Origin: Ardenticatenaceae bacterium
GTDB taxonomy: Bacteria > Chloroflexota > Anaerolineae > Promineifilales > Promineifilaceae
NCBI GenBank assembly: GCA_030065875.1
Contig: JASJCR010000013.1
Span: 17,645-81,644, forward strand
Length of the DNA stretch: 64,000 nucleotides
Direction of reading: 5' to 3'
The translations under genes and the position numbers were made by a program. The first letter of the stretch is position 1. Each line of letters opens with the position of its first letter. Below the pieces are notes generated by a model. The model saw only the letters and a list, made by a program, of their open reading frames with translations, searched no databases and was not told where the DNA came from. Shown piece by piece: positions 3 to 16,488 of this stretch.

Positions 3-3000
3 AATATCGATCCGGCCGCCGCGCCGGATGAGTTCGGTATCGTGATCAACGGCAGCAATCAGTGGGTGGGCGGAAGTGGCTCTTTGGTCTGGGCCCCGGC
101 CGCCGTCACGCAGACGTTTGCTGCGGCCGCCTTTTTGAACCCGCCACAGGACAGCTACCGGCTGACGGCCGGTTCGGTCGTCACGGCCGGCTATCACGCC
201 TACCGGCCGGACGCCACCGTCTCCACGACCGCCTGTGCAGGCTGCTTCTCTTCGGTTCAGGCGGCCGTCGACAGCGGGGCCAACGCCATTTTTGTCGAGC
301 CAGGTTTTTACACCGACTCGTTTTACCTGGTGCACGGCCTGAACCTGGTCGGCACGCGAGCTGACCTGACGATCATCGAAGGGAGCGGCTCGGCCACAGT
401 CACCGCTGAAGGGGTAAATGCTTCTCTCAGCCGCCTGACGCTCACTAGCTCGAGCGGTGGTAACGGGCTACAGGCCGAGCAGGGGGCGGACGTAACTGTT
501 TCGCGGACCATCATTCGCGACACGACCACGGCGGTGGCGCTTGACGGCAGCACCACCTCGGCCGAGCTGATCAACAGCAATCTGGTTAAAAACAACGCGG
601 GTGTAGTTTCCACCGCCCAGGCCGGTTTTAACATGCGCAACTCGATCATCGCCTACAATACCGGTATTGGTCTGAGCCACGCGGCCAACGCCAGCCAGAG
701 CGCTCACACCTATAATTTGTTCTGGCAAAACGGGGCCGATTTTGGCCAGGGGGCCGGTGCCGGTGCTGGGGAACTCTTCCTCGACCCGCTCTTTATCGAT
801 CTGGCGGCCGATGATTATCGCACCACCGACTTCTCACCGGTCATCGATGCCGGTGATCCGGGGGATCCGGCCCCGGCCAACAGCGGCACCGTGGATATCG
901 GCTTCCTCGAACAGGGGGTGGGCGGCATCTTTGTCGATGACGATTACTGCCCCACCTGCGCCAACGACGGCCTCGCCTGGGGTGTCGACGCCTTTGCCAC
1001 CATCCAGGAGGCCCTCGACGCGGCTGAAGCCCGGCTAATCGCCGTTGGCGACGCCCTTCTAGAGCGGCGATTGACCGTTGCGGTGGCCCCCGGCAGCTAC
1101 AGCGAAAACGTCACCGTGCCCAGCTATGTCAGCCTGAGTGGGAGCGGGCCGGATCAAACGGTTTTGACGGCCGCAGCGGCCGGTTCAACCGTCACTTTTG
1201 AAAACGTGACCCAGGCCACCCTCTCCGGTTTTCACGTGCAGGGGGCCAGCGGCGCGGGCTCAGCCAACGTCATGATCCGCACCGGCAGCCTGATCTCCGT
1301 GACGCGGAGCTTGCTCACCGGCTCGACCGGCGGGGCGGCGGCTATCCGTCTTGAGGCGGGCAGCACGGCGGACATCCAGTTTAATACGCTGGTCGTCAAC
1401 GAAGCCGGTATCCAGGTGGACGGTGCCCAAAGCTGGGCGGCCGTGCAAAACAACATCGTGGCCGACTCAGCCGGGGCTGGGCTGGCGTCCATTGGAGGAG
1501 GCCGCTTCTTTAACGATTACAACCTCTTCTACAACAACGCACCCGACTTCGGGAGCGGGTTGGTGGCTGGTGACGGGGACCTTACCGGTCAGAATCCGCA
1601 GTTCGCCCCGTCGTTTTACCGGCTGACGGCTACCTCTCCGGCCGTCGACCGGGCTGACCTGCTGGCTGAGGTGCCCGCAGGCGGCGGCGTGCGGGCCGAT
1701 ATCGGCTATCACGAGCTTCTGGCAGCGCCGGTGACGGTGCTGCTGGGGGATATCGACAACTCCAGGGCGCTAGCCAACTCCGGTGTGGCTCTGGTGGAAG
1801 TGGGGGTGGTGGCCGTGGCCGACGGCTCCCAGCCGGTGACGGCCACGCTGCCGTCAAGCTGGACCCCGGTCACGCTGCTCGGCAGCGCGGGGGATACGGT
1901 GCGCTTCTGGTCGGCCGATGTGCAGCCCGACAACGAAGGGATTTATCGCATTTACAGCCGGGCCACCGATGCTGAAGCCAACGGTGAAGCGGATGAAACG
2001 GTCTGGTTTGAAGGGACATTTTTGGCCGATGGGGTTGCCCCGGTTGTCACCAGCCCGACCGCTTCCAGCAGCTCGATCTCGCCCCTGGAACTGCGAGCCA
2101 CCACCTCCGATTTTGTGGCCGGTGAATTCACCATCGAGCAGGTTGGCTTTGTGGTCAACGGCCAGCCGGTGGCGGCGGAATGGGTTCCAGAGCCTTGGGA
2201 CGCTGCCGCGCAGCAGCCACGGGCCTTCCGGGCGCTGGTTGATCTGTCGGTGGGCAGCTACACGGTCACGGCCGTAGCCACCGATCGCTCGGGCCGGACC
2301 ACCACCTCGACCCCTCTGGCTCTGACAATTACCGGCCAGGCGTTCGACACGACCCCTCCCGGTCTGACTTTCACTGGGGCGTCGTCTCCTGGCGATAACA
2401 ACGTCATTGTCCTGGAAGGGACGGCCGGTGACGATACCGCTCTGCTGGGTGTCGAAGCCAGCTTTGATAACGGGCAGACGTGGCATCCGGCCGCCCTGTC
2501 CGGCAGCGATTGGACCCTGACCTACCAGGTGCAGGACGACCAGGAATATGTGACGTATGCTACCCTGCTCCGCTCGCGGGACGTGGCCGGCAACGTGGTC
2601 ACCCAAACGACGACGGTGACCTTTGACGACCAGCCGCCGCGCGGACTGGGCACCCTGCAGTTTGATCCGCCGCTGGGCAGTCATCTCGATTTTGCCCAGA
2701 CGCTGAGCGTGACCTGGGATGCACCGTTTGACGGTTCTGGTGTCGCTGAGGTCCAGGTGTTGATCGACCAGCTGCCGGAAAGTGAACCGACGACAACCGT
2801 GTTCGGTACGTCGACCGGGCAGTCGCTCAACGCCAACGGCCAGTGGTACGCTCACGTGGCCATGGAGGACAGCGGCGGCAACCGCATCTTGCGCCACTAC
2901 GGCCCTTGGTACGTCGGCGACATCAGCGGGGCGTGCCCCGACCGGCGGCAGTCTATCGTGCTCGATGGGGTCCTGAACTTTGAAGTTGACGAGTGGCTCC

Positions 3001-5885
3001 CGGCCGGGGAACTGCTCGATGATGACGAGCGGCCGCTTAACCGGGATACCCAGCTGCTGTTTGCCGCCTGGGATGCCGAGCACATTTACCTGGCCTGGCA
3101 AGGTGGGTGGTGGAATACCGACGGTTCCTTGTGGGCGTATCTCGATGTTACTGGCGACGGGAGTACAATCGCCCAGCAGGGTGGTCATGTTCTACCGTTT
3201 GCCGCTGATTACGCCGTTGAAATCGCCAGCGACAGCAGCGGCACCCTGTGGCAATACAGCGGCGGCAGCTGGGTCGACCAGGGAGCGGTTGACTTCATCC
3301 AGGGAGATTCCGGCGGCACCGAAATTGCCCTGCCGTTTGGCACCAACAGCTACAGCACCAACGTCAGGCTCTTCGCTTATGCCGAGGACGATCAGAGCGG
3401 CGTTTGGAGCACCTTCCCGACGACCAATCCGTTAAGCGGCAGCTGGACGAGCGCCTACAGCTGGGCCAATCTGTGCAGCAGTGTCCTGCCGAACGCCAAT
3501 CAGCCGCAGTCGAAGAATCTGGCCGTGAGCGTTTCCAGCCCGCAGTCAACCGGCACGCCGTGGGGCCCGGGGGAAACGCTGTCGTATGCAATCGAAGTGA
3601 CCAACAACGAAATTAGCGGCTTGCTTTCGGGGGTTGAACTTGCGGTTGAGGGCACGTCTGGTCTGGGCTATCAGAGCAGTCAGGGTGCGGTCTGTACTGA
3701 CTGTACTCCGGGTGCCGGCAGCTGGACGCTGGCGCTTGATCCGTTTGTGCCTGGAGAAACACAAACGGTCATCGTGACCGGCACGTTGGAGACCCAGCCT
3801 GTTCTGGCTGCCGTGGACCAGGTCACCACCACCGTCACGGTGGTGCGCAATGCGGTTGAGTTGGCGGTTGACAGTTTGGTTCACGCGGTAGACGGCAAGC
3901 CGCCGACGGTAACCCTGACGATCAACGACGATCTGTCGATTTTGCCCGGCGCGCAGACATTAAGCGGTGCGGCGGCCGATGCCGGTGGTTCCGGGATCGA
4001 TTATGTGCAGGTGCGTCCGGCCGGCGGGAGCTGGTCACCCGCCGCCGGCACGACGAGCTGGACATTTGACCTGACTGTTCCGCTTGTGACGACTTACACG
4101 GTTGAGCTGCGGGCGTTTGATCAAAACGGCAACGCCAGCCCGATTGTAAGCGTACCGCTGGTGGTCGATCAGACCGCCCCGCAGATCGATTTCTCACTGC
4201 CGGTTTACGTCACCGACACGCTGGCTGCTCTAAGCGGCACGGCGGCCGATCCTGCTCCTGTCGGTGGCTCAATCGCGGATGTGGCCCTGCAGTTTGAGGA
4301 CCCATCGGCCCCCTTCGCCTCAGCCATCGTTTATGATCCCGATCAGGCCGGGCAGCAGGGGTGGCTCTACGGCTGGACGACGCCGAGCCTCGATGGCCAG
4401 GTCGTGCAGGTGCGGGCTCAGGCCACCGACGCGGCCGGCAATCAAATGGTGACCGGCTGGCTGACGACGACGGTTGATACCCGCCTGCCGGTCATCACCG
4501 CCACGCAGATGATCACCACCGTGCTTTTTGACGAGTATTATTTAGCGGCCGTCGGTCCGGCGGTCCTGAGCGGTCAGGTGACCGACAACCTGCTGGACGA
4601 AGTCTGGATCGAGCTGCACACTCCAGCTAGCGAAGTGTACATTTTCCCTCAGACCATATCTGGGGATGAGTGGGCGTATGATTTTGCTCTGCCGACCAGC
4701 GAGGCCGGTCTTTATCTGGTTTGGATCCACGCTACCGATTTAGCCGGCAACCGGCAGATCGAAGGGCCGTTTGAAATCGTCGTTGAGCCCACGGCCGATC
4801 TGCTGCTGGACAAGCGGGTCTCCACCGGTGCGGCCGTGCCGGGTGATGAGATTCAGTACACGCTGACCTTCACCAACAGCGGCTTGCTAACCGTCGATGA
4901 CGCGGTCCTGAGTGATCCACTGCCGGGAGAGCTGGTCAACCCCAGCTTTGAATCCTCGGTGCCGGTTACGACTACCGGGTCAACCCCGTATCGCTGGCTG
5001 CTGCCGCCATTGACGCCCAGCATGTCTGGGATGATTACCGTTACGGCCGAGATCCAAAATCCGCTGACCGGCACGGTCACCATTACCAACAGCGCCACGC
5101 TAAGTTCCGCCGGGGTATTTGATCTCGACGGGGGAAATAACGGGGATTCGGCCGTCGTGGCTGCGGCCGATGTGGCCATTTCCGGTCTGGCGGCCAGCAA
5201 CAGTGGCCCGGTGGCGGTCAACCAGCCGGTTTTGGTGGCGGCAGCCGAAACGGTCGGGACCAACGTGCACTACAGCTGGGATCTGGGTGACGGCAGCAGC
5301 GGCAGCGGTTCTCAGGTGACCCATACGTTTGCCGCTCCGGGAATATACACGGCCACCGTGACGGCCACCAACGGCACGTCGCAGGTCACTGCAGAAACGG
5401 AGATCGAGGTCGTAGAAGCGTTTTACACCTATTTGCCGGGGGTGATGCATGAATATTTCCCACCTGCTCCGGATCTGGTGGTCTCTGGAATTAAGGCTAC
5501 AACCGGTGGTGTTGAGATCACAATTGAGAATATCGGCGGGGCCTCAGTGACCGATGGTTTCTGGGTCGAGCTGTATCTCAACCCGGATGTGGTGCCGTCG
5601 GAGGTGAACCAGATTTGGCCGGATCTGGGGGATCGCGGGGCGACCTGGGGCGTGACGGCCGAGGCTCTGCCGCTCGAGCCAGGTGAGACGCTGGTTTTGA
5701 CGCTGGAAGACGACTATTTTGTAGCGGAGTACAGTGTTTGGCGCGACGCCCTGCGTTCAGGGACGGTAGTGTATGCTCAGGTGGATTCGGCCGCGGCCAG
5801 CACGACCTATGGTGGGGTACAGGAGAGTCACGAAATCAGCGGCGGGGCGTATAACAACGTCAGCGGGCCGGTGGTGATTCCATAG
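3..5885 (+). CDS. Giant secreted/surface multidomain protein (5'-truncated by window): parallel beta-helix repeats, Ig-like/bacterial adhesin repeats, DUF11-like, PKD domain
   Basis: Open frame continues upstream of the listed start (codons 3-41 read NIDPAAAPDEFGI); beta-helix-like segments (VDDDYCPTCANDGLAWGVDAFATIQEALD), DUF11-like LLLDKRVSTGAAVPGDEIQYTLTFTNSG, PKD YSWDLGDGSSGSG..HTFAAPGIYTATVTA. Confidence 0.85.
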   Translation, partial: NIDPAAAPDEFGIVINGSNQWVGGSGSLVWAPAAVTQTFAAAAFLNPPQDSYRLTAGSVVTAGYHAYRPDATVSTTACAGCFSSVQAAVDSGANAIFVEPGFYTDSFYLVHGLNLVGTRADLTIIEGSGSATVTAEGVNASLSRLTLTSSSGGNGLQAEQGADVTVSRTIIRDTTTAVALDGSTTSAELINSNLVKNNAGVVSTAQAGFNMRNSIIAYNTGIGLSHAANASQSAHTYNLFWQNGADFGQGAGAGAGELFLDPLFIDLAADDYRTTDFSPVIDAGDPGDPAPANSGTVDIGFLEQGVGGIFVDDDYCPTCANDGLAWGVDAFATIQEALDAAEARLIAVGDALLERRLTVAVAPGSYSENVTVPSYVSLSGSGPDQTVLTAAAAGSTVTFENVTQATLSGFHVQGASGAGSANVMIRTGSLISVTRSLLTGSTGGAAAIRLEAGSTADIQFNTLVVNEAGIQVDGAQSWAAVQNNIVADSAGAGLASIGGGRFFNDYNLFYNNAPDFGSGLVAGDGDLTGQNPQFAPSFYRLTATSPAVDRADLLAEVPAGGGVRADIGYHELLAAPVTVLLGDIDNSRALANSGVALVEVGVVAVADGSQPVTATLPSSWTPVTLLGSAGDTVRFWSADVQPDNEGIYRIYSRATDAEANGEADETVWFEGTFLADGVAPVVTSPTASSSSISPLELRATTSDFVAGEFTIEQVGFVVNGQPVAAEWVPEPWDAAAQQPRAFRALVDLSVGSYTVTAVATDRSGRTTTSTPLALTITGQAFDTTPPGLTFTGASSPGDNNVIVLEGTAGDDTALLGVEASFDNGQTWHPAALSGSDWTLTYQVQDDQEYVTYATLLRSRDVAGNVVTQTTTVTFDDQPPRGLGTLQFDPPLGSHLDFAQTLSVTWDAPFDGSGVAEVQVLIDQLPESEPTTTVFGTSTGQSLNANGQWYAHVAMEDSGGNRILRHYGPWYVGDISGACPDRRQSIVLDGVLNFEVDEWLPAGELLDDDERPLNRDTQLLFAAWDAEHIYLAWQGGWWNTDGSLWAYLDVTGDGSTIAQQGGHVLPFAADYAVEIASDSSGTLWQYSGGSWVDQGAVDFIQGDSGGTEIALPFGTNSYSTNVRLFAYAEDDQSGVWSTFPTTNPLSGSWTSAYSWANLCSSVLPNANQPQSKNLAVSVSSPQSTGTPWGPGETLSYAIEVTNNEISGLLSGVELAVEGTSGLGYQSSQGAVCTDCTPGAGSWTLALDPFVPGETQTVIVTGTLETQPVLAAVDQVTTTVTVVRNAVELAVDSLVHAVDGKPPTVTLTINDDLSILPGAQTLSGAAADAGGSGIDYVQVRPAGGSWSPAAGTTSWTFDLTVPLVTTYTVELRAFDQNGNASPIVSVPLVVDQTAPQIDFSLPVYVTDTLAALSGTAADPAPVGGSIADVALQFEDPSAPFASAIVYDPDQAGQQGWLYGWTTPSLDGQVVQVRAQATDAAGNQMVTGWLTTTVDTRLPVITATQMITTVLFDEYYLAAVGPAVLSGQVTDNLLDEVWIELHTPASEVYIFPQTISGDEWAYDFALPTSEAGLYLVWIHATDLAGNRQIEGPFEIVVEPTADLLLDKRVSTGAAVPGDEIQYTLTFTNSGLLTVDDAVLSDPLPGELVNPSFESSVPVTTTGSTPYRWLLPPLTPSMSGMITVTAEIQNPLTGTVTITNSATLSSAGVFDLDGGNNGDSAVVAAADVAISGLAASNSGPVAVNQPVLVAAAETVGTNVHYSWDLGDGSSGSGSQVTHTFAAPGIYTATVTATNGTSQVTAETEIEVVEAFYTYLPGVMHEYFPPAPDLVVSGIKATTGGVEITIENIGGASVTDGFWVELYLNPDVVPSEVNQIWPDLGDRGATWGVTAEALPLEPGETLVLTLEDDYFVAEYSVWRDALRSGTVVYAQVDSAAASTTYGGVQESHEISGGAYNNVSGPVVIP

Positions 5886-5993
5886 CAAATTAATGAACGA
5901 AGTCCCGCTACTAAAGCTTGAAATCGCCTGGGAATTTAGTTGATCGGCATAAATTCCCAATCTGCCAGTCGATTGGAGGTGCCGGTAGAAAAA

Positions 5994-7388
5994 TTAATTT
6001 CCTGAGCGCGGGCGTCCTTCTGGAAATAGCTGGTATCCTCCCTCCGGCTTCCCTCGCCAGTTGACTATAAATTGCGGGTGAGAAGGAGAAGGTTCGATTT
6101 TGCGGCGAAGGGAGGCGATGGTCTGATAAAGACTATCGTCGGTTACCCCTTTGATTTGAGCTGGCTCTGGCCAGGCTCCTTCAATGATTTCATTTTTTGT
6201 CAAACGAGCTCGGGGCTGGCCAACCATAAACGCGAGTACTTTTTGCTCTAGAGGTTGAAGTCCCGTCAAAGGATGAACGCCTTGAAAAATTTGTTTGGTT
6301 TCCTCATCAAACCAGATAGGGCCGCGAAGTCGGCCGCCTGCTTGCTCAAAATACGCCCCAACCAGGTTTGAGCAAATTGCTGGATCACCTGTAGGTGTGC
6401 AGATTCCCTTCCGTTTAAGAGATCGCCACAGCGACTTCCGGTTTAGGCTATTAACATTTTGAATCGCCGATGTGTTGTTTTTTGCTAACTCGCGCAAAAA
6501 ATTTATTTCGGCCACACTTAATCCAAATTCAATTTCACGCAACCGAGTCTTGAGCGGCGGATGCGCCAAAGCAGCGATCAGGGCCGGTTCCAAAGCTGGG
6601 TTTTGAGCCGCTACAGCTGGCCACCAATGGATCAAGGATTTAAGCAAAGATGGAAACCGGCCGGAAAGATTAAGCAGAAATTGGCGCTCACTATCATTTA
6701 AGGTCATATTTCCACGCAATTCCCGGTCGATCATTCCCTGGGCATCGGCTTCTGATAACATAGGTACCCAGCAGATATGGTTATCAATCACCTCATACAG
6801 CTCTCCTAAAATGGTGGGATCTGCTAAATAAGCTGCTTCCTGGCGCATGCCGACGATAAAGACCAGGATTCCTTTATAGCGATCGCGTAATCCCCGCAAC
6901 GCGTTAATCATATAGGGGGTAGCCATCTCACAAAATTCATCAAAGCGATCAAAAACCAATCCCAGACGCGTTTTATTCTGCTGAAAGTAACCGAGCAATT
7001 CTCTCAAAGCGCTCTGGGCCAGAAATGGGTCCTGGGTTGTCCGATACATTTCATATAAGGCGTTGGTTTTTTTCTGAAGTGGTTCCGGTAGGTTTGCTTG
7101 CCTTTCGTAAATGGCGCGCAGCAAAACGCGATAAAAAGTTGCTGGTGTTTCATCAGGAATATCATTAAGATCAACCGGAACAAGAATATAATGCAGCGAT
7201 TCCCCCTTAAATAATTTCTCCATCACATCCGGCCGATGGCAAATATATCGAAGTAGATTGGACTTTCCACTACCGGCCAGACCAATGACGCTGCCGCTGC
7301 GCCCCTCGCGCAGCCAGGTGACGATCTGCTCGATTTCTTTCTGCCGATAATTTGTCCCAAATGCCCGCCAATCAATCAAATCTGCCAT
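5994..7388 (-). CDS. AAA-type ATPase with C-terminal winged-helix (OmpR/PhoB-type) DNA-binding domain
   Basis: Walker A GLAGSGKSNLL near N-terminus; C-terminal LTKNEIIEGAWPE..VTDDSLYQTIASLRRKIEP..FIVNWRGKPEGGYQL typical of trans_reg_C. Confidence 0.8.
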   Translation of the reverse strand: MADLIDWRAFGTNYRQKEIEQIVTWLREGRSGSVIGLAGSGKSNLLRYICHRPDVMEKLFKGESLHYILVPVDLNDIPDETPATFYRVLLRAIYERQANLPEPLQKKTNALYEMYRTTQDPFLAQSALRELLGYFQQNKTRLGLVFDRFDEFCEMATPYMINALRGLRDRYKGILVFIVGMRQEAAYLADPTILGELYEVIDNHICWVPMLSEADAQGMIDRELRGNMTLNDSERQFLLNLSGRFPSLLKSLIHWWPAVAAQNPALEPALIAALAHPPLKTRLREIEFGLSVAEINFLRELAKNNTSAIQNVNSLNRKSLWRSLKRKGICTPTGDPAICSNLVGAYFEQAGGRLRGPIWFDEETKQIFQGVHPLTGLQPLEQKVLAFMVGQPRARLTKNEIIEGAWPEPAQIKGVTDDSLYQTIASLRRKIEPSPSHPQFIVNWRGKPEGGYQLFPEGRPRSGN

Positions 7389-7509
7389 ATTTCCTCTTCC
7401 TGATCATATCCTGAGCAATTTCTGATATTTATTTTCTCAAGATAATCTGCTCGAGATTTTTTATGCTGTAACCAGCTAGCCATTCAATAACGATACCGTT
7501 GAGCATCTC

Positions 7510-7581
7510 ATGAGCGAACCCGCCAGCGGGCTGGCCGGTTCGGGCGCCATTCTCAACGAGTTCATCCCGCGAAGGAGGTGA
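7510..7581 (+). CDS. Possible 23-aa upstream ORF (MSEPASGLAGSGAILNEFIPRRR) whose stop overlaps the Shine-Dalgarno of the next ORF
   Basis: ATG 7510, TGA 7579-7581 inside GAAGGAGGTGA; no clear RBS of its own. Confidence 0.3.
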   Translation: MSEPASGLAGSGAILNEFIPRRR

Positions 7582-7587
7582 CTCGAG

Positions 7588-7728
7588 ATGCTACGTGAAT
7601 GGTTTGGAAAACATTTGCGCACTGTAATGGTGGCCGGGTTGGCCCTGATGCTCATAGGGGCACCCATTGCCTCCCAGCCAGCATTTGCTGATTGCTCCGG
7701 TGCAGGTTCATCGACTTGCAGTGGCTAA
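7588..7728 (+). CDS. 46-aa secreted micropeptide: MLREWFGKHLRTVMVAGLALMLIGAPIASQPAFADCSGAGSSTCSG
   Basis: Strong RBS AAGGAGG (7572-7578) 9 nt upstream of ATG; charged N-term, hydrophobic core, A-F-A cleavage-like site, two Cys in a 12-aa mature tail; not in supplied ORF list (below length cut-off). Confidence 0.55.
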   Translation: MLREWFGKHLRTVMVAGLALMLIGAPIASQPAFADCSGAGSSTCSG

Positions 7729-7748
7729 ACCTCAGAGGGAGAGGCTGG

Positions 7749-8969
7749 TCATAATATGTGGCCAGCCAATTCCCTTTGCAGCTCACTATATTTATTGCCG
7801 TATTTGGCTGCCAGGTCATTAGCCCACTTATCATCAGGGTGCCTGGCAAAATAATCAAGCGCTTGTTGTAACAATGATGAGGCCCGATGAGCATTGCTTG
7901 TCGCCAGATTGACTTCCGCCAGACTGGCCAGAGCATTCCCCAGTTGCACTTCCTGGCCTACCCTTGGCCACACCTGGATCGCTTCTTCCAGGGCTTGCTC
8001 GGCGCGATCCAGCTGCCCCGCCTTAAATAGGGCGTACCCCAGGTTGGTGAGTACATGAGCAAGACGCCCCTCGTAACCCTGATTGGCTAAATACTCCCGG
8101 TTTATGTTTGAAAACAAACGCACCGCTTCCGGCCAATTTCCCTGAACAGCCTGTAAAAACCCTTGGTTAAGCTGAACGGTGGTTTTGTCAAACTCATAAC
8201 CTGAATTAGCCAATATCGACCAGGCAATAGACAGTTGTTGTTCCGCCTGCGGTATTTCCTCTGCGGCCTGGTAAGCAAGGGCCAGGTTGCTCCGAAAGCG
8301 AGCTTCATAAAGCGTTTGCTGGTTTTCATGGGCTAATTCAATGGCCTGGGAAAGATATTGTTTCGACTCCGCCAACTCACGCTGATAGCGCGCAGCCTCA
8401 CCCAGGGTGTTGAGAATCACAGCCAACCGTTTTTTCTGATTGGGAATTTTGGTAAAAAAATCCAGTGCCTGCCTGGCGTGTGCTTTGGCCTCAGGATAGC
8501 GACGAAGGGCGATATAAGCCTCCCCCAAATTGTAGTGGGTGATAGCGATTAATTGATCTTGTTGGATTTCGCGCGCCAGAGTCAAGGCATCCAGATGGAA
8601 GGATAATGCTTGTTGGGGCAAGTAGCGCATGCGGTGAATTTGACCGAGGCGGTTGAGCAATCGAATCTCGAGGCGCTTTTCGGAAAGCCCCATCTCACGA
8701 TAGGCAAATTCAAAATGCGGCAGCCAGTCAAGCCAATAATCTCGTCCTTCTACCAAATCACAGGCATCAAGAGCGGCTACAAGGGCATCTTGCTGTACAG
8801 CCGGTTCTTCCAACCCATAACGAATCACGTGAAAAAGATTGCTTTTTTCAGCATCAAGTTTCTGAAGCACCTGCTGATCAGGCCGGGCCAGCTGATTTTG
8901 CCAATACTGAACAGCAGCGGCCGTTTGGGCCGCAAAAATAGAATTGACGCGCGATTCCAAACTATTCAT
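7749..8969 (-). CDS. TPR-repeat protein
   Basis: Repeated TPR-like helices (ALAREIQQDQLIAITHYNLGEAYIALRRYPEAKAHARQALDFF etc.); overlaps upstream STAND ORF by ATGAATAG. Confidence 0.8.
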   Translation of the reverse strand: MNSLESRVNSIFAAQTAAAVQYWQNQLARPDQQVLQKLDAEKSNLFHVIRYGLEEPAVQQDALVAALDACDLVEGRDYWLDWLPHFEFAYREMGLSEKRLEIRLLNRLGQIHRMRYLPQQALSFHLDALTLAREIQQDQLIAITHYNLGEAYIALRRYPEAKAHARQALDFFTKIPNQKKRLAVILNTLGEAARYQRELAESKQYLSQAIELAHENQQTLYEARFRSNLALAYQAAEEIPQAEQQLSIAWSILANSGYEFDKTTVQLNQGFLQAVQGNWPEAVRLFSNINREYLANQGYEGRLAHVLTNLGYALFKAGQLDRAEQALEEAIQVWPRVGQEVQLGNALASLAEVNLATSNAHRASSLLQQALDYFARHPDDKWANDLAAKYGNKYSELQRELAGHIL

Positions 8970-10377
8970 ACATTTCCCGTTTCAAAATTTCTTGATGAAT
9001 AAAGGTGGATGTCAAACGGTGAATACCGTAACGTTTTTCTTTTAGGTCTCCGCGAACTTCCAAAAGGGATCGGGTTCGCAATTCGCCAACAGCTGGCCAA
9101 AAATGGTCCGCATTCAGCTGTGATATCTCCCTTAAGTAGTCCAGGGTACCGCCGGATTCACCGATCAGGGGCATTGCAAGCAGCAGGGTTTTGGCTGGAT
9201 CACTCAAAGTTTCCCAAGCGTAGCGGTAAATATGGGAATACATATCTTCAATATGCCCTGACTGGCCTTCTTCCAATCCCTTCAGCAGATCCCCCAGGTT
9301 CATCCAATCGAGAAGGCTAACAATCAATTTGAGAGCCAGTGGGTTTCCCCCAACTAGCGCGTAAATTGCTTCAATTTCGGCCTCGCCTGCCCTTGCCCAC
9401 GCAGCAACATTTCTTTCCTTAGCATAATTATTTAGAAGAGCGGCCGCATCGGTCTGAGACAAGGCGTCCACTTCAAAATGAAAGGCGGCGATTGTGGGAT
9501 CCAGGTGGGTGCGTGTAGTCAAGAGAAATTTTGACGGGTGGGTAAGCTGCATCAATTGGGAAGCGATATATGAGGTTTCTGCTTCCACTTCGAGATTATC
9601 AATCACAACTAAGCATGGTCGGCTGTTTAAAATTTGGCGCAGATGGAAAAGCTTATCCTTTCTAGAAAACACATCAACATGCGGGGCCAGGATCCTCATC
9701 ATGGCATCAATAACCGGGTCAAAGGATGGCTCCAGAGAGTGGTGGCGATGACGGACGTCCCTCAAATTAACTCGGACCCAAACGATGTCATCAAAGTGTA
9801 AGGCCTCTATAGCATCTCGGGCGAGAATATCCGCCAGAGCGGTTTTGCCAATACCTCCGATCCCCGTTAAAGTCAATACCCACGGACCAGCGGGCTGCAA
9901 GAGTTTTTTCCCTAGAAAAAGGCGCGTTTCTTTTAAACCAAACAACTGGGAGTAGCTTTTGGGGGGCAGACGGAGCTTGAGGCGGCCAATTCGGTCTTGT
10001 CGCAGGGCCAGTTCTTCTTCAAGAATAAGTTCCGAAAGCCTTCTGATCGCTTTTCGCTGGCGACGACTGATGGTATGCTCGCTTAGGCTCAGTTTGTTGC
10101 CGACCGTATACAGCTTGTTCTCTTCCATAAAGCGCAGACGAATTATCTGGGCTGCAACCTCATCATGGACGGCAAGCTGATCTAGTTGCTCTTCAATGAT
10201 TTCTTTGATCACCTCATAGGGATTTGTTGAGGATGTTGTGTGGGAAGCGAGCTTCTGTTTGACGATCTGAAAATCAGCGAGAGGAGCGGGGTTAACCATT
10301 TTTTTCCCCGACCATGATTTTAAAACCTGGTGAATTTTTTCCACAATTTCATCGATGTTATATCTTGTCATCACCAA
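8962..10377 (-). CDS. NB-ARC/STAND-family ATPase with N-terminal HTH-like region
   Basis: P-loop LTGIGGIGKTALA, Walker B-like CLVVIDNLE, FLLTTRT, GGNPLALKLIV motifs. Confidence 0.85.
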   Translation of the reverse strand: MVMTRYNIDEIVEKIHQVLKSWSGKKMVNPAPLADFQIVKQKLASHTTSSTNPYEVIKEIIEEQLDQLAVHDEVAAQIIRLRFMEENKLYTVGNKLSLSEHTISRRQRKAIRRLSELILEEELALRQDRIGRLKLRLPPKSYSQLFGLKETRLFLGKKLLQPAGPWVLTLTGIGGIGKTALADILARDAIEALHFDDIVWVRVNLRDVRHRHHSLEPSFDPVIDAMMRILAPHVDVFSRKDKLFHLRQILNSRPCLVVIDNLEVEAETSYIASQLMQLTHPSKFLLTTRTHLDPTIAAFHFEVDALSQTDAAALLNNYAKERNVAAWARAGEAEIEAIYALVGGNPLALKLIVSLLDWMNLGDLLKGLEEGQSGHIEDMYSHIYRYAWETLSDPAKTLLLAMPLIGESGGTLDYLREISQLNADHFWPAVGELRTRSLLEVRGDLKEKRYGIHRLTSTFIHQEILKREMYE

Positions 10378-10650
10378 ATTTGATCTCTCTCCCGAAGCGA
10401 TCCATGCTGTTCAAATGAGATTGTTCCACAATTAACAGGCAAATTGTAGTCTAAATTATACTGTTTTTGTCCAATAATTGAAAAACAGCGCAGGAAATCG
10501 CAGAATGATGACAAACTAATATCCATAACCGTATGGTACTATGGTTTGACCACCAAGAGGAAAATACACAACTTTCATCATCGCCTCATTGGGTTTGGCA
10601 GAAGTAGTATCGCGCCCGCTTACATATCATTTGTTCCTTATGTGATGGAA

Positions 10651-10683
10651 CAAAAAAGGCTCGTGGACAACCAACCACGAGCC
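10651..10683 (-). terminator. Intrinsic terminator downstream of the APH-like kinase gene
   Basis: Perfect 9-bp stem GGCTCGTGG(10658-10666)/CCACGAGCC(10675-10683), loop 8 nt, T-run on the minus strand. Confidence 0.75.
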
Positions 10684-10808
10684 ATTTCTCTTTTTATATT
10701 AAGGGGGTTGGCTGATTTGAATCAAAATGAACATTCTGGACCGGTGATGGGCAATAAAATGCGGCCAATGTGGTAATTTTTATTTCGTAATGATCTACAG
10801 TGAAAAGC

Positions 10809-12509
10809 TTACCACCAGGCCACTTCCGGCCGTTGCTGTTTACACAGGTTAGCAAGTTCTCTCAACCTCCCTCGCATTTCAAGATAACGGATTAAATTGA
10901 TAGAGAATTCGAGTTTTTCATTACCTGCGATTAGATCAACATCGATGTCAAGCAAAAACGGCAATGATCGCATTTCTACAAATGAAAAATGTTTAACCAA
11001 TCCCCGTTGCAGAACGCGACGATCAATTTCAACATGCTCAGGTAATTCCGATATAGGGGAAGTTTGGGATAAGGGAGAAATGGGCCGAGTATCTTCCGAA
11101 CAATCCGGAAAATTCCCCTGGGCCAAAGCCGCAGCGGTTGCCGCTCCCCAAAAGACACATTGGCGGGCAACGACTGATAGATTGTTAAATTTAATTGCTC
11201 CCAAGAACGTGAGGAATAAACCATCATAATACTCTTGCCAATTTCCTATTTGGAAAAATTGGGCTTGAGCTGCGCGCCTCAACATCAAAGTTAAAGCAAA
11301 TGGTGTTTCGAGACCAACTGACGATTTTGGATCACGGCTGTTTACCCAGGAACAATGTAGCTGGTTCAAGTAGTCAAATATTACTTCGGGTTTGATTTCC
11401 TTGTCTTTTTGGGTATCGACAAATAAGGAAGTAAAGATACTCAGCTCAAGCATGAAAAAATCGCGCAAGATTTGATCCCGCCGGGATTTGCCAAAATCAA
11501 TCACGTGAACGTTCCCACGTTTCGTTTCGACCATGATGTTGTTGAGATGGAGATCCCCATGAATAGAAGCTGTAAGGCTGTCGTATGAATTTTTGACGAT
11601 CTTTTTGTAAAAGTGAATGGGATTGGGGAGTTCAGTTCCCGCTATGACAATTTGGTTTTCCTGAGCGAAATCAGCGGCTGTGCCAAAGATTTCAACTATT
11701 TTTTTTTGCAAGAACGTATCTCGGGTATCAGTGATCATCCCTAAAATGGGCATCTGTAAGGGAATGCCAATTTCATAACCATCAATATCAGGAGCATTGG
11801 TTAGATAAAACCGAAACCTTGGATTGCCTTTTGGGGAATTAAAAAGGACCCTTTGCGTAGCCAGGTCGATTTCTTCGGGCTCGAATCCAAATATCTGTAC
11901 AATTTGACCCGCTTGCCAGTCCTGGAGGCGAAATGAACCTGGGGAAAGAAAATGAACGTCCAAACCCTCTTCAGGTAGATATTGAATTGTGAGGTTGGCT
12001 GGTAAATATGAGTCAAAAAAATTTTTAAGATGAAGGTCGTTTTCGATTTGACTCTGGCCCCATAACGCTTGAAAGCTAGTTAACAGCCGCTCAAAGACAT
12101 CTAAACATTCCTGAACGGTATGATTTTGAGCGTAATCTGAGAAGCTGCTAATCTCATATACCCCATCACCCGCAAGGGAATACCACAAGCCAGCTAATTG
12201 GCTTCCTGGTGGATAAGTGGGCTCCTGGCGTATGCTGGCAACGTCAGGCATACGGTTTTTGATGTACTTCTCATAGCCCGCCATTTCCCGCTCTATTTCG
12301 TGTACGCTGGCAATCTTGACAACCGCCTCTAGCTCGGCTCCAGTGCTGTGTATGGGGCGTACTTTGTAGACAAAACTGCCACCTAGCCCTTCAGAAAATT
12401 CATGTAAAATGTTGACTCGCGTATATTTGGAAAACATTGCGCGCAGGACGCGTTTCACCTTGTTGTCAAGCGGTTTGGAAAGACGGCTATCATCGATGGG
12501 GATGGTCAT
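10809..12509 (-). CDS. APH/choline-kinase-like phosphotransferase family protein
   Basis: Catalytic-loop-like HGDLHLNNIMV...HVIDFGKSRRDQILRDFFMLEL. Confidence 0.65.
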   Translation of the reverse strand: MTIPIDDSRLSKPLDNKVKRVLRAMFSKYTRVNILHEFSEGLGGSFVYKVRPIHSTGAELEAVVKIASVHEIEREMAGYEKYIKNRMPDVASIRQEPTYPPGSQLAGLWYSLAGDGVYEISSFSDYAQNHTVQECLDVFERLLTSFQALWGQSQIENDLHLKNFFDSYLPANLTIQYLPEEGLDVHFLSPGSFRLQDWQAGQIVQIFGFEPEEIDLATQRVLFNSPKGNPRFRFYLTNAPDIDGYEIGIPLQMPILGMITDTRDTFLQKKIVEIFGTAADFAQENQIVIAGTELPNPIHFYKKIVKNSYDSLTASIHGDLHLNNIMVETKRGNVHVIDFGKSRRDQILRDFFMLELSIFTSLFVDTQKDKEIKPEVIFDYLNQLHCSWVNSRDPKSSVGLETPFALTLMLRRAAQAQFFQIGNWQEYYDGLFLTFLGAIKFNNLSVVARQCVFWGAATAAALAQGNFPDCSEDTRPISPLSQTSPISELPEHVEIDRRVLQRGLVKHFSFVEMRSLPFLLDIDVDLIAGNEKLEFSINLIRYLEMRGRLRELANLCKQQRPEVAWW

Positions 12510-12719
12510 GCTAACTCCTTTGTGCTTGCCAAAAAAAACGAAAGCTTTGGTAATGGTGAAGGTTAACTGATATTTGCGCGGCCGTTATTAAAGCTAAAAT
12601 CAAGCTCTACTGTCAAATTTTCGTAATTTGCTACGTTAATTGTAAAACGATTTTATTAATGATGCACCCTGAAATCCAAGTAAATGTTGGCAATCAGCGA
12701 AAAAAGGGCTGATAATGCA

Positions 12720-12870
12720 GAAAGCCGCAAATTTTCTCCAAACAGTGTTGTCATTCCCGCGAAAGCGGGAATCCATTGCCCTGCCACCGATGGATCCCCG
12801 CCTTCGCAGGGATGACAGGCCTTTTTGAAGGATATCAGTATTTATTTGTAAATCCTCAATAATGCGGGAC
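12720..12870. repeat. Dispersed repeat containing GTCATTCCCGCGAAAGCGGGAATCCA; related to the 55273-55480 element
   Basis: Near-identical core to 55325-55375 and shared tail ATTTATTTGTAAATC(C/T)TCAA. Confidence 0.7.
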
Positions 12871-12882
12871 AACCCCTTAGCA

Positions 12883-12922
12883 GTCGGTTTTAATCGACGG
12901 GTATCGGTTTTAATCGACGGTA
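12883..12922. repeat. Tandem palindrome repeat (CGGTTTTAATCGACGG x2)
   Basis: Two copies about 20 bp apart; inverted relative of 34681-34720. Confidence 0.65.
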
Positions 12923-12989
12923 AGAGTAGTGGTTCGTGTGCTTTGCTTGTTGGGCTTATCGATTTCGCGGTACGCCCAGCGAATCTCTT

Positions 12990-13820
12990 TCAAGTATGAA
13001 AGTTCAGGATGACCCGTTTTTTTTCTTCAGCAACGCCCGTGACAAAGTAGCGGTATAGGTGCAGCCACTGCTCGAGGGAGAGGTGGCTGGGCAGGGCCTC
13101 GCTGGGAAAGCGGCCGTCTTTGGCCAACCGTTTCCACTGATTGTGGGTAAAAACGTTTTTGTACCCGATTTTAAGGTTTTTTCGCCAGCGGCGAAAGCCA
13201 TAGGTGACAAATTTGTAATACAGATCTTTATGATGAGGTTCGAGTTGGGGGCTGACCCGTTTTTGCATGTGCAGCAGGGTTGCATCGACTCTGGGCACCG
13301 GCCGAAATTCAAAGCGATTGATGTTGGCCAGGTTTTCAAACGTAAACCACGGCTGAAAGAGAATTGAAGATTCGGTTGAGGCATTCTGGCCGATAAACTT
13401 GTCGGCCGCTTCCCGCTGCATGATGAAGTAGGCGTCGTGTGGCGGATGATTGGACCGCCACAGCTTGAGCATGATGGGGGCGGTAATATTGAACGGGATA
13501 TTAGAGAAGATGTTGAACGGCTTGGTGGGCAAGCTCGTTTTCAGAAAATCCCCGTTTTTGATTTCCACGTTTGGTATTTTGGCGAGGGATTTGCGCAGGT
13601 TGGCGGCGAGCTGGTGATCTATTTCGATGGCCGTGACCCGGCCGGCCCTTTTGGCTACTTCTCGGGTAATGATCCCTTCACCCGGTCCGATTTCCAGAAC
13701 GAGATCTTCGGCCGAGAAACCAGCTTTGCCCACCAGCTGCCGCACCGTTTTGGCGTGGATCAGGAAGTTTTGGGCGAAATCTTTTTGCTGCCTGTTTTTT
13801 CTTGAATCGCTCAACCACAC
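12990..13820 (-). CDS. Erm-type 23S rRNA (adenine-N6)-methyltransferase-like protein
   Basis: QNFLIHAKTVRQLV, VLEIGPGEGIITREVAKRAGRVTAIEID, NIFSNIPFNITAPIM (Erm-like motif IV). Confidence 0.75.
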   Translation of the reverse strand: MWLSDSRKNRQQKDFAQNFLIHAKTVRQLVGKAGFSAEDLVLEIGPGEGIITREVAKRAGRVTAIEIDHQLAANLRKSLAKIPNVEIKNGDFLKTSLPTKPFNIFSNIPFNITAPIMLKLWRSNHPPHDAYFIMQREAADKFIGQNASTESSILFQPWFTFENLANINRFEFRPVPRVDATLLHMQKRVSPQLEPHHKDLYYKFVTYGFRRWRKNLKIGYKNVFTHNQWKRLAKDGRFPSEALPSHLSLEQWLHLYRYFVTGVAEEKKRVILNFHT

Positions 13821-13995
13821 CTCCTGTTTTCAGACCAACAAAGCTCCCCTCCCGATTCGGGAGGGAGTTAGGGGGCGGGTATGTTGACCGTCAAAATACC
13901 CCTCCCCGACGCGGTTCAAGGGCTATCCATTCTAACTAAAAAACCCATTGTCTCATACCGGTTCAGGGACTGCTTTTACGCCACATCGCCATTTT

Positions 13996-14023
13996 GTAGG
14001 GCCGCAGCATGCTGCGGCCCTAC
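13996..14023. repeat. 28-nt perfect palindrome GTAGGGCCGCAGCATGCTGCGGCCCTAC
   Basis: Self reverse-complementary; same architecture as 36875-36902. Confidence 0.8.
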
Positions 14024-14295
14024 GGCGCAAGATGCATCCACCACGTCCTATCCGATTATAACCTTGAACCTACACGCCCCTGAGCCGAGCGAAGGATCCC
14101 GTCCACTCACATGCAGGTGAAGGTGGCTAAGAATGGGCTTGTAACACTCCAAATCGGGTCTTCTCTTACTGAAGCTTGGTGAGATTCTTTACTCCGCTGC
14201 GCTCCGTTCTGAATGACAGGCGATTTTCAGCTTACCTCCCCGCCCCTGAGCCGAGGAGGGGAGCATGTCAGTGTGTTTATATAAAGCTTACTTTA

Positions 14296-15138
14296 TCAAA
14301 CCCAGCGCAGTTTGTCAGGGTTGCGCATAAAGTAGATATTGTTGATTTTTTCCCCTTCAAGGTCGAGAACCATGGCTGTAATTGGCTTCTCGTTTTGCCA
14401 GACCACCATGCCCAGCCGGCCGTTGAGCCGCTTGAATTCCAGCCGGACATCGGCCGGAGCCAGGCGAACCAGACCCAGCATAAAGCGGGCCGCCTTGTCG
14501 ACCCCATAGACCGGATGACGAGCGGCTGGAACTTTGCCCCCGCTGTCAGACCACACGGTAATCTCATCAGAAAGAAGCCCCACGAGGTCGTTGAGATTGC
14601 CCGATTGGCAGGTGGCGATAAATTGATAAAACAGGCGGTCGTGGGTCTCTTCCGGGGTTGAAAAGCGATTCGATCCGCTTTTTAAATGCCCTTTGGCCCG
14701 GCTAAAGATTTGCCGGCAGTTTGTGGCGGTGCGTTCGACTACCTTACCAATCGTTTCATATTCAAAGCCAAACGCCTCGCGGAGCAAAAATACCGCTCGT
14801 TCTACCGGAGAGAGGGTTTCGAGCAGAACGAGCAGGGCATAAGAAAGGGTTTCGTGGCGCAGGTAAGGGGCATCGGCCGGCTCCATTACCACTGGTGTGG
14901 GCAGCCAGGGACCGGTATAGGTTTCGCGCTGTTTTTGCAGGACGCGCAGCCGGTCGATGCATAACCGGGTGACCACGGTAGTGAGCCAGCCGCGGGGGTT
15001 ATCGATGCGAGTTTGGTCCGCCTCATGCCAGCGGATAAACGCTTCCTGCACCATGTCCTCTGCCTCAGGGACTTCACCCAACATGCGATAGGCGATGGCC
15101 ATCAGGCGCGGCCGGAATTCTTCAAATAAATCATCCAT
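14296..15138 (-). CDS. ECF RNA polymerase sigma factor, ECF41/SigJ-like with SnoaL-like C-terminal extension
   Basis: RPRLMAIAYRMLGEVPEAEDMVQEAFIRWHEA, sigma4 region YETIGKVVERTATNCRQIFSRAKGHL, about 110-aa C-terminal extension. Confidence 0.85.
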   Translation of the reverse strand: MDDLFEEFRPRLMAIAYRMLGEVPEAEDMVQEAFIRWHEADQTRIDNPRGWLTTVVTRLCIDRLRVLQKQRETYTGPWLPTPVVMEPADAPYLRHETLSYALLVLLETLSPVERAVFLLREAFGFEYETIGKVVERTATNCRQIFSRAKGHLKSGSNRFSTPEETHDRLFYQFIATCQSGNLNDLVGLLSDEITVWSDSGGKVPAARHPVYGVDKAARFMLGLVRLAPADVRLEFKRLNGRLGMVVWQNEKPITAMVLDLEGEKINNIYFMRNPDKLRWV

Positions 15139-16399
15139 GATGGCTTATGATCATAGCGACATCGCGGGCGCTGGCCAAGCTAGTATCGGCCAGCATCCCT
15201 TCTGCATCAACCCAGTCGCCAATGACGTACACGTTTGGTGAATCTTCAATGACGATAGACGGCCGCGGTCGGGCCGCTTCAACCAGGGCATGGGTGACGG
15301 TCATGCGCGGCAGAAAATCACACAGCACCGCCTCCTGGCGCCAGCCCGGCTGCAGCTGATCGAGCGCCTGTTCCATAAAGGCTCGGTGCTCTTCAGGAGA
15401 ACGGTGGTCGTCCGGAGCGATGTAAACGGCCGTGTGAACGAGGGTGTGGCCGGCCGGAGCCAGCCTGGCCGATTTAGAGTGCACCACGTGATAGTATGAC
15501 AAGCCAACCCCCAACCCGAGCTGGATGTCGGGGTTGGGCAGGCGGCGCAAACCAACCGTCAGGCAGGCCGCCTGGATGGGACGTAGCCGGTCGACCACCT
15601 GGGCCAGGGATTCACTTGCCGGGAGCAGATCAACGGCTGCGGCCGGTGGGATAGCCAGCACCACGTGGCGGGCAAAAACCGCTTTTTCCCGGGCAAACTC
15701 GATTTTGTAGCCATCGGTTGACTCTTTGAAAATCGCCGTAGCCCGAGCCTGGGTCATCATTGGGATACCTGCGGCCGCCGCTTTTTGACGCAGGTCTGAT
15801 ACCAGCTGCCCCCAGCCGCGGTCGAGATAAAGCACATTCGAAGTCAGAGCCAGCTTGACTTGAGCCAGGGTGGCCCCGGCGCTCATGCGGTCCGGGTCGT
15901 TGGCATAGGTGGTCAGGCGGCTGGTTGTTTCAAACAGGACGCGGAGGCGGTGATCGGAGATGTTTTGATCGAGCCACTGTCGCCAGGTCATCTGGTTTAG
16001 GCGCGCCGATGGTTCATGACGCACCATTTTTAGCAGCCCCTGCAGATACCCCAGCCGCCGGCCGCGCAGCATTTTACTTCTAAAAAATGCGCCGGGGGTC
16101 AGCGGCAGATGATCGAGGCCGGACCCGGTTAGGGCGGTTGGGGATTTGCCGAAGCCCGGTGTTTTCCCCTGGGGTTGAATGCCCAAGCCATTGAGTACCT
16201 TCATCCCTGCTCCGCCGCGGTAGAGGGCGTGTGGACCTAAGTTGAGGTAATACCCATCTTTTTGCCGAGTGTGGGCCCGGCCGCCGAGGTGCTGTGATTT
16301 TTCAAAAACTGCGACCTGCTGACCCTGTTTTTGCAGTAGCAGCGCGGCCGAAAGTCCGGCCAGCCCACCCCCGATGATAACGGTGTCGAAATTGTTCAT
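15131..16399 (-). CDS. FAD-dependent oxidoreductase (phytoene desaturase/amine oxidase-like)
   Basis: MNNFDTVIIGGGLAGLSAALLLQKQGQQVAVFEKSQHLGGRAHT; C-terminal VYVIGDWVDAEGMLADTSLASAR; overlaps sigma ORF by 8 nt. Confidence 0.85.
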   Translation of the reverse strand: MNNFDTVIIGGGLAGLSAALLLQKQGQQVAVFEKSQHLGGRAHTRQKDGYYLNLGPHALYRGGAGMKVLNGLGIQPQGKTPGFGKSPTALTGSGLDHLPLTPGAFFRSKMLRGRRLGYLQGLLKMVRHEPSARLNQMTWRQWLDQNISDHRLRVLFETTSRLTTYANDPDRMSAGATLAQVKLALTSNVLYLDRGWGQLVSDLRQKAAAAGIPMMTQARATAIFKESTDGYKIEFAREKAVFARHVVLAIPPAAAVDLLPASESLAQVVDRLRPIQAACLTVGLRRLPNPDIQLGLGVGLSYYHVVHSKSARLAPAGHTLVHTAVYIAPDDHRSPEEHRAFMEQALDQLQPGWRQEAVLCDFLPRMTVTHALVEAARPRPSIVIEDSPNVYVIGDWVDAEGMLADTSLASARDVAMIISHHG

Positions 16400-16414
16400 G
16401 AGAACCTCCTTATG

Positions 16415-16488
16415 AGACAACAGACTTCAGACCCCCGACTACAGCAGCGCTGGTTTTCTGATATCTGAAGTCCGAGGTCTGTAGTCTT
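16415..16488. repeat. Heptamer-period inverted array (AGACNNC word)
   Basis: AGACAAC AGACTTC AGACCCC CGACTAC ... inverted arm CTGAAGT CCGAGGT CTGTAGT. Confidence 0.75.

Follow-up and report, generated by a model that had tools for sequence, protein, structure and literature searches.

The stretch of DNA analysed here, hereafter the window, comprises 64,000 nucleotides (nt) of contig C168 (JASJCR010000013.1, positions 17,645 to 81,644) of an Ardenticatenaceae bacterium of the phylum Chloroflexota, whose genome (assembly GCA_030065875.1) measures 7.4 Mb and is 95% complete. Between positions 5994 and 12509 of the window lie four genes on the minus strand and, on the plus strand, the gene of a micropeptide preceded by a structured leader RNA, a locus that may represent a peptide-signalling module in which the peptide is read by a tetratricopeptide repeat (TPR) protein paired with a signal transduction ATPase with numerous domains (STAND). 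The features are the following:

5994-7388, minus strand: AAA/STAND-type ATPase with a C-terminal OmpR/PhoB-type winged helix-turn-helix (AAA-wHTH), 464 amino acids (aa) (Pfam, PDB, alignment A8)
7492-7593, plus strand: structured leader RNA of the micropeptide (covariation, no match in Rfam, single copy in the genome)
7588-7728, plus strand: secreted-type two-cysteine micropeptide, 46 aa (open reading frame (ORF), homologues, codon evolution)
7749-8969, minus strand: TPR protein, 406 aa, the proposed peptide/ligand sensor (Pfam, AlphaFold2 model, PDB fold matches)
8962-10377, minus strand: helix-turn-helix (HTH, Sigma70_r4-like)-NB-ARC STAND ATPase, 471 aa (Pfam, PDB)
10683-10658, minus strand: intrinsic-terminator-like hairpin and T-run, 3' of the TCAD9-EAD7 gene, which it separates from NB-ARC/TPR
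10809-12509, minus strand: TCAD9 (APH-fold kinase-like) protein with a C-terminal EAD7 (about 10827-11006), 566 aa (Pfam)

The four minus-strand ORFs are intact and, together with the micropeptide, are found where an initial annotation of this DNA had placed them. The same annotation had described the NB-ARC and TPR genes as overlapping halves of a two-part STAND protein, and both points hold, as the two ORFs show a translational overlap of ATGAATAG at 8962-8969 and HTH-NB-ARC plus TPR is a conserved gene pair in the fetched neighbourhoods. The genes had also been regarded as one block, which is correct for their placement but not for their transcription: the terminator-like hairpin closes the TCAD9-EAD7 gene, therefore the block comprises more than one transcription unit, and a single operon is ruled out by this terminator together with the divergent layout of the peptide and AAA-wHTH genes, to which a region of ~200 bp is common.

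Pfam searches identified NB-ARC (1.5e-14) and Sigma70_r4 HTH (1.5e-6) in the 8962-10377 product, TPR_12 (2.7e-23) in that of 7749-8969, and the Trans_reg_C wHTH (1.2e-8) and AAA/NPHP3_N (1.5e-5) in that of 5994-7388; DNA-binding domains are, thus, present on both the NB-ARC and the AAA proteins. In the PDB, profile matches of the NB-ARC protein include plant NLRs, PH0952, AfsR and Apaf-1, while those of the AAA-wHTH protein, which is conserved in alignment A8, are PhoB/OmpR DNA-binding domains. The nearest named relatives of the NB-ARC gene belong to uncultured Anaerolineae (Ardenticatenaceae, Caldilineales, Anaerolineales and similar). The AlphaFold2 model of the TPR protein has a predicted local distance difference test (pLDDT) score of 94.9 and, among the 50 PDB matches listed, LGN ranks first by E-value and NprR, a quorum sensor, by TM-score, with Rap also present. 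The 10809-12509 product, for which a relationship with the TCAD families had been suggested, does match one of them, TCAD9 (4.6e-31), followed by EAD7 (1.1e-8), besides APH (1.1e-5). Residues K65, H317, D319, N324, D338 and F339 of TCAD9, which make up the catalytic lysine and the HxDxxxxN and DF motifs, are invariant in 11 relatives, and on these motifs the protein is predicted to be an active APH-fold kinase.

The micropeptide, MLREWFGKHLRTVMVAGLALMLIGAPIASQPAFADCSGAGSSTCSG, is preceded by a 10-nt Shine-Dalgarno match (AAGGAGGTGA). Its secretion signal was judged by hydrophobicity and charge, and with a predicted cleavage between AFA and D the mature peptide end is probably DCSGAGSSTCSG. On the 3' side of every TPR gene, small ORFs in convergent orientation were sought that encode an N-terminus resembling a signal peptide and, at the C-terminus, a two-cysteine loop; under fixed criteria, a micropeptide was found at 26 of 59 NB-ARC/TPR pairs versus 6 of 438 other gene ends of the same loci (Fisher p 1.4e-21, relatedness ignored). 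These peptides usually end in [D/E]C-x(5-8)-C-xG, and the 25 distinct loops are made of 5-8 residues, 90% of which are S, T, G, A or P. Equally placed peptides are present in more distant Anaerolineae. In an IQ-TREE phylogeny of NB-ARC, 21 pairs form one fully supported peptide-less clade, and the 26 peptide-bearing pairs are found among the 33 others, the exceptions including glycine-rich or longer-tailed peptides (L124, L146 and L147). In aligned peptide pairs, synonymous divergence (dS) in the signal part is well above the non-synonymous one (dN); in L121/L122, for instance, 18 changes are synonymous and 6 non-synonymous. Since many genomes have a homologue in this position and the signal part shows this excess of dS, the comparative evidence identifies the micropeptide as a real gene under coding-type selection and with a secretion-type N-terminus; a spurious ORF is ruled out on the same grounds. 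The mature part is identical in L159 and L160, and in L162 and L163, and differs among the same-genus loci L121-L123, in which the signal parts are nearly the same; this suggests, on small numbers, a pherotype-like divergence of the mature peptide.

The leader that precedes the micropeptide contains the following elements, all on the plus strand:

7498-7503/7552-7557: helix P1
7507-7514: first palindrome, CTCATGAG in the window, 5' of P2
7515-7523/7534-7542: P2 hairpin, between both palindromes
7543-7548: second palindrome, GGCGCC or GGCGCGCC across leaders, 3' of P2
7557-7562/7580-7585: P3, which encloses the Shine-Dalgarno (7572-7581)
7501-7507/7587-7593: P4, which covers the start codon, with weaker covariation

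The nested plan of P1, palindrome, P2, second palindrome and Shine-Dalgarno-holding P3 is common to the leaders. It was set by hand on six close leaders, followed by covariance-model realignment; RNAalifold on a raw MAFFT alignment of 24 leaders, in which the P2 hairpin was misaligned, gave no structure. In the six leaders 98.3% of cells pair, compared with at most 42.5% in slid controls, and both-sided changes occur in 7 of 20 pairs. After realignment of 20 leaders to the model, both-sided (compensatory) changes are found in 15 of 20 pairs and 92.9% of cells are paired, versus 74.5% in shuffled and at most 41.5% in slid controls, in an alignment that leans toward the model. P4, which joins the 5' side of P1 to the start codon, is paired in 89% of cells versus 25-49% when slid, its covariation being weak, and at least 6 of its 7 pairs are present in 10 of 11 further hand-picked leaders; because they share bases, P1 and P4 are mutually exclusive. 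Single-sequence folding of the window leader is moderately better than that of shuffles (z -2.0). The covariation marks the leader as a conserved structured RNA, whose P3 and P4 helices are predicted to be able to hide the ribosome site and the start codon. No match was found for the window leader or eight related loci among 4227 Rfam families at E up to 1, ruling out a known riboswitch, and the window's genome has a single copy of the element (104.8 bits, against 15.9 for the next hit). Given its strong covariation, the leader is a candidate for a new class of regulatory RNA. In the core region, 45 of 46 leaders contain a perfect palindrome of 8 nt or more, versus 9.2 in shuffles, and palindrome sequences vary by locus with self-complementarity kept (CTCATGAG, CTTCATGAAG, CTGATCAG, CACGCGTG and GCACGTGC; GGCGCGCC, GGGATCCC and GGGGCCCC). 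They may serve RNA dimerisation or as operator DNA for a co-evolving dimer; therefore, part of the leader conservation may be DNA-level.

Searching with the RNA alone revealed new micropeptides beside new TPR genes, both in the same family and in other Anaerolineae families. Model R2 gave 31 hits in 24 of 52 family genomes. Of the 11 hits outside its training set, seven lead into a new signal-peptide ORF and two into a shortened, GGGSQSGCGG-tailed peptide next to a TPR-CHAT gene; of the remaining two, one is cut off by the contig end and the other is false. In a phylum sample of 399 genomes, with stricter filters, R2 found nothing beyond the window except for a single hit at 1e-4 and two that were false. 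More distant leaders have different sequences and the same structural plan; model R3, built from seven of these, was run on 250 Anaerolineae genomes and had 13 hits at E<1e-4, and all ten of those outside the training set start a small secretion-type ORF, with TPR, NB-ARC, DJ-1 or AAA-wHTH neighbours at 1.5 kb or less in nine. Therefore, the RNA and the peptide/TPR pair find each other independently. RNA hits at L236, L238, L239, L333-L335, L337 and L338, weak and with no such peptide downstream, were set aside. At L235 (G163:C1:21000-34000), from another Anaerolineae family, a leader-like RNA and a glycine-tailed peptide are accompanied by vWA and tubulin-like genes in place of the TPR gene.

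Unrelated neighbourhoods without co-occurrence, which would speak against a linked system, were looked for, and the genes were instead found to co-occur repeatedly. Relatives of NB-ARC, AAA-wHTH and TCAD9-EAD7 are present in 44, 33 and 15 (three through the EAD7 part only), respectively, of the 52 same-family genomes. AAA-wHTH adjoins TCAD9 at ten loci (the window, L111 and L113-L120) and NB-ARC/TPR at seven (the window, L111, L117 and L121-L124). A small DJ-1/PfpI-like gene, absent in the window, is divergent from most HTH-NB-ARC genes (e.g., L117 6193-6675 and L121 4948-5409), and a TPR-CHAT protease-like gene of ~1075 aa replaces NB-ARC/TPR at five loci. The constant core consists of NB-ARC/TPR, peptide and leader RNA, and the AAA-wHTH, DJ-1/PfpI-like, TPR-CHAT and TCAD9-EAD7 genes are recurrent add-ons, TCAD9 being optional; some NB-ARC loci also have ABC-F and SLFN/AlbA genes nearby, which we do not count as parts. 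The gene set and its recurrence are, like the peptide and the RNA, established by sequence comparison. The TPR-CHAT genes of L113, L114, L115, L118, L120, L226 and L227 share the leader RNA and peptides, mostly ending GGGSQSGCGG, and AAA-wHTH, TCAD9 and EAD7 genes usually follow them.

With a probability of about one half, the locus is a peptide-signalling module in which an RNA-gated peptide is read by the TPR/STAND pair; the peptide sensing proposed in the initial annotation is consistent with the conserved secreted-type peptide. In favour of the module are the convergent micropeptides next to TPR genes, their clustering on the NB-ARC tree and presence in more distant Anaerolineae, their coding-type evolution, the leader covariation and the RNA-first finds, besides the likeness of the TPR fold to NprR, the DNA-binding domains and the conserved kinase residues of TCAD9. 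The leader RNA would gate peptide synthesis through P3 and P4, which would hide the Shine-Dalgarno and the start codon, and the peptide would leave the cell through Sec, with a probable disulphide between both C-terminal cysteines. After re-import it would be read by the cytoplasmic TPR protein, working with the HTH-NB-ARC STAND ATPase. On ATP-dependent assembly the HTH, like the AAA-wHTH encoded next to it, would become able to change transcription, with the divergent peptide gene among the targets. Through EAD7 the module would recruit the TCAD9 kinase as its effector arm, and it could serve to recognise kin or self, to sense density or to raise an alarm. What we infer here are the export and the disulphide, the binding of the peptide to the TPR protein, the re-import, the RNA trigger, the regulatory targets and the purpose.

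Similar principles are known from RRNPPA systems (Rap, Rgg, NprR, PlcR, PrgX, AimR), Firmicutes receptors with adjacent propeptides (PMC9765709). Here too, the gene next to the TPR sensor is an ORF of 20-120 aa that carries a secretion signal and would yield a short mature peptide, and NprR and Rap folds are among the TPR-model matches listed; unlike in RRNPPA, the receptor is split, with an NB-ARC ATPase coupled to it, the peptide has a two-cysteine loop and the leader RNA is structured. RRNPP-type Pfam models had no match in the locus proteins, and the HTH is on the separate NB-ARC protein. The locus would resemble RRNPPA in its working but is not a member, as the single-chain receptor of the RRNPP family is lacking. 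STAND regulators (AfsR/SARP, MalT, PH0952) have the same HTH-STAND ATPase-TPR domain order, with AfsR and PH0952 among the matches, but here the domains are divided between two overlapping genes, HTH-NB-ARC and TPR, to which a micropeptide is linked. In the FxSxx-COOH/HaaA systems of ribosomally synthesized and post-translationally modified peptides (NCBIfam NF040586, NF041717) a TPR/NB-ARC protein also adjoins a small peptide gene, and their profiles match weakly, with scores far below the NCBIfam cut-offs; however, the peptide motif is different and the leader here is of Sec type, and no radical SAM or other modifying enzyme was seen among the neighbours examined (window genes 42-16420).

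Several observations weigh against the signalling module. Peptide-TPR binding and re-entry into the cell are predictions, and no importer gene was found nearby. TPR folds are generic and LGN has better E-values, the likeness to NprR being weak support. No peptide is detectable in the large NB-ARC/TPR clade, so NB-ARC/TPR proteins are able to function in its absence; nor is NB-ARC obligatory, since TPR-CHAT proteases have the peptide as well; and the RNA-linked peptides of L226, L229 and L230 are without cysteines or a clear signal.

The main rival, possible but rather unlikely in our judgement, considers the micropeptide an output, namely a secreted or membrane-acting small toxin or bacteriocin-like peptide, repressed by the leader RNA and released once stress, non-kin or a phage has been detected by the wHTH regulators and the sensor, be it STAND/TPR or TPR-CHAT. 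The conflict-type partners (NB-ARC, CHAT, TCAD9, EAD7), the tightly occludable translation and the divergence of the peptide gene from a wHTH regulator would all fit an effector. However, an immunity gene was not seen, the mature tails, very short and rich in S/T/G, do not resemble membrane-active peptides, the loop is invariant in some pairs but not in others, and PADLOC on the locus gave only a generic TPR match and weak kinase matches, with no known defence system.

The initial annotation had linked the locus to the systems described by Aravind and colleagues, and this link is real, as TCAD9 and EAD7 show. It is improbable, in our opinion, that the locus is mainly such an EAD/TCAD conflict system (Kaur, Aravind and colleagues), with VMAP/STAND partners elsewhere and the peptide as a neighbour of separate function. 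TCAD9 and EAD7, both listed as vWA-MoxR-VMAP-associated (PMC10910872), are present together with STAND ATPases, and AAA-wHTH adjoins TCAD9 at the ten loci mentioned above. As in EAD-coupled NTP-dependent conflict systems (PMC7159879, PMC8195603, PMC10910872), EAD7 is carried by STAND and effector proteins elsewhere in the genome (EAD7-NB-ARC-TPR at C105, caspase-EAD7 at C21 and C184), the EAD7-NB-ARC-TPR protein being a candidate EAD7 partner. Against this reading, no vWA, MoxR or VMAP gene was found among the window genes 42-16420 covered by the search, so that the neighbourhood defining a vWA-MoxR-VMAP ternary system is missing; moreover, NB-ARC/TPR, the peptide and its leader RNA recur at loci that lack TCAD9, and the constant core here is, unlike in those systems, peptide, RNA and TPR. 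An EAD1 search of the genome was silent, and its controls were silent as well.

The genomic EAD7 network (G000:C26, C105, C21, C174, C184, C16 and C51; L023-L029) comprises fusions with pentapeptide repeats, NB-ARC-TPR, caspase, caspase-FGE and FGE proteins. A second TCAD9 cluster of the same genome, at 7255-13432 of L030 (G000:C140:6000-25000), contains a GAF-histidine kinase, a receiver-TCAD9 and an AAA-wHTH protein and couples a two-component relay to the TCAD9 kinase fold; L130 is arranged similarly.

Type I toxins combine a short hydrophobic peptide with a Shine-Dalgarno-sequestering leader, and both are found here; nevertheless, a type I toxin-antitoxin-like element (small hydrophobic peptide, occluded ribosome site and antisense RNA) unrelated to the TPR gene is very unlikely, considering the fixed link to TPR genes across many families, the conserved cysteine tail and the single copy of the element in the genome. 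That a chance ORF and a chance structure lie beside ordinary regulators, small ORFs being easily over-called and the genomes being fragmented metagenome assemblies, is contradicted by recurrence, codon evolution, RNA covariation and the RNA-first discovery of new members, and its probability is negligible.

The peptide-signalling module could, tentatively and with somewhat less than even chances, be part of an undescribed class-wide form of communication or self-recognition, based on a lineage-specific two-cysteine micropeptide, an RNA-switched mRNA and a split NLR-like (STAND) receptor, a single circuit that would bring NLR-type conflict proteins together with peptide pheromones and a new class of regulatory RNA. 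The module is not described in the literature searched, which did not cover subscription papers. If the peptide is a ligand, bacterial STAND/NLR-like ATPases would gain a genetically encoded peptide partner, and peptide signalling, none of which was found described for it in the literature searched, would extend to an uncultured Chloroflexota group.

Around the locus, the region upstream of TCAD9 contains a dispersed-repeat-like hairpin (GGATTCCCGCTTTCGCGGGAATGAC) and the direct repeat CCGTCGATTAAAACCGA (window 12740-12930), as well as a gene of the ribosomal RNA adenine dimethylase family (PF00398, 5.6e-47) at 12990-13820. A surface-type protein of 1947 aa with PKD, DUF11 and beta-helix regions is encoded at 42-5885, where the GC content is 60-64%; that of the adjoining block is 43-49%, a contrast suggesting that the block may have been acquired.

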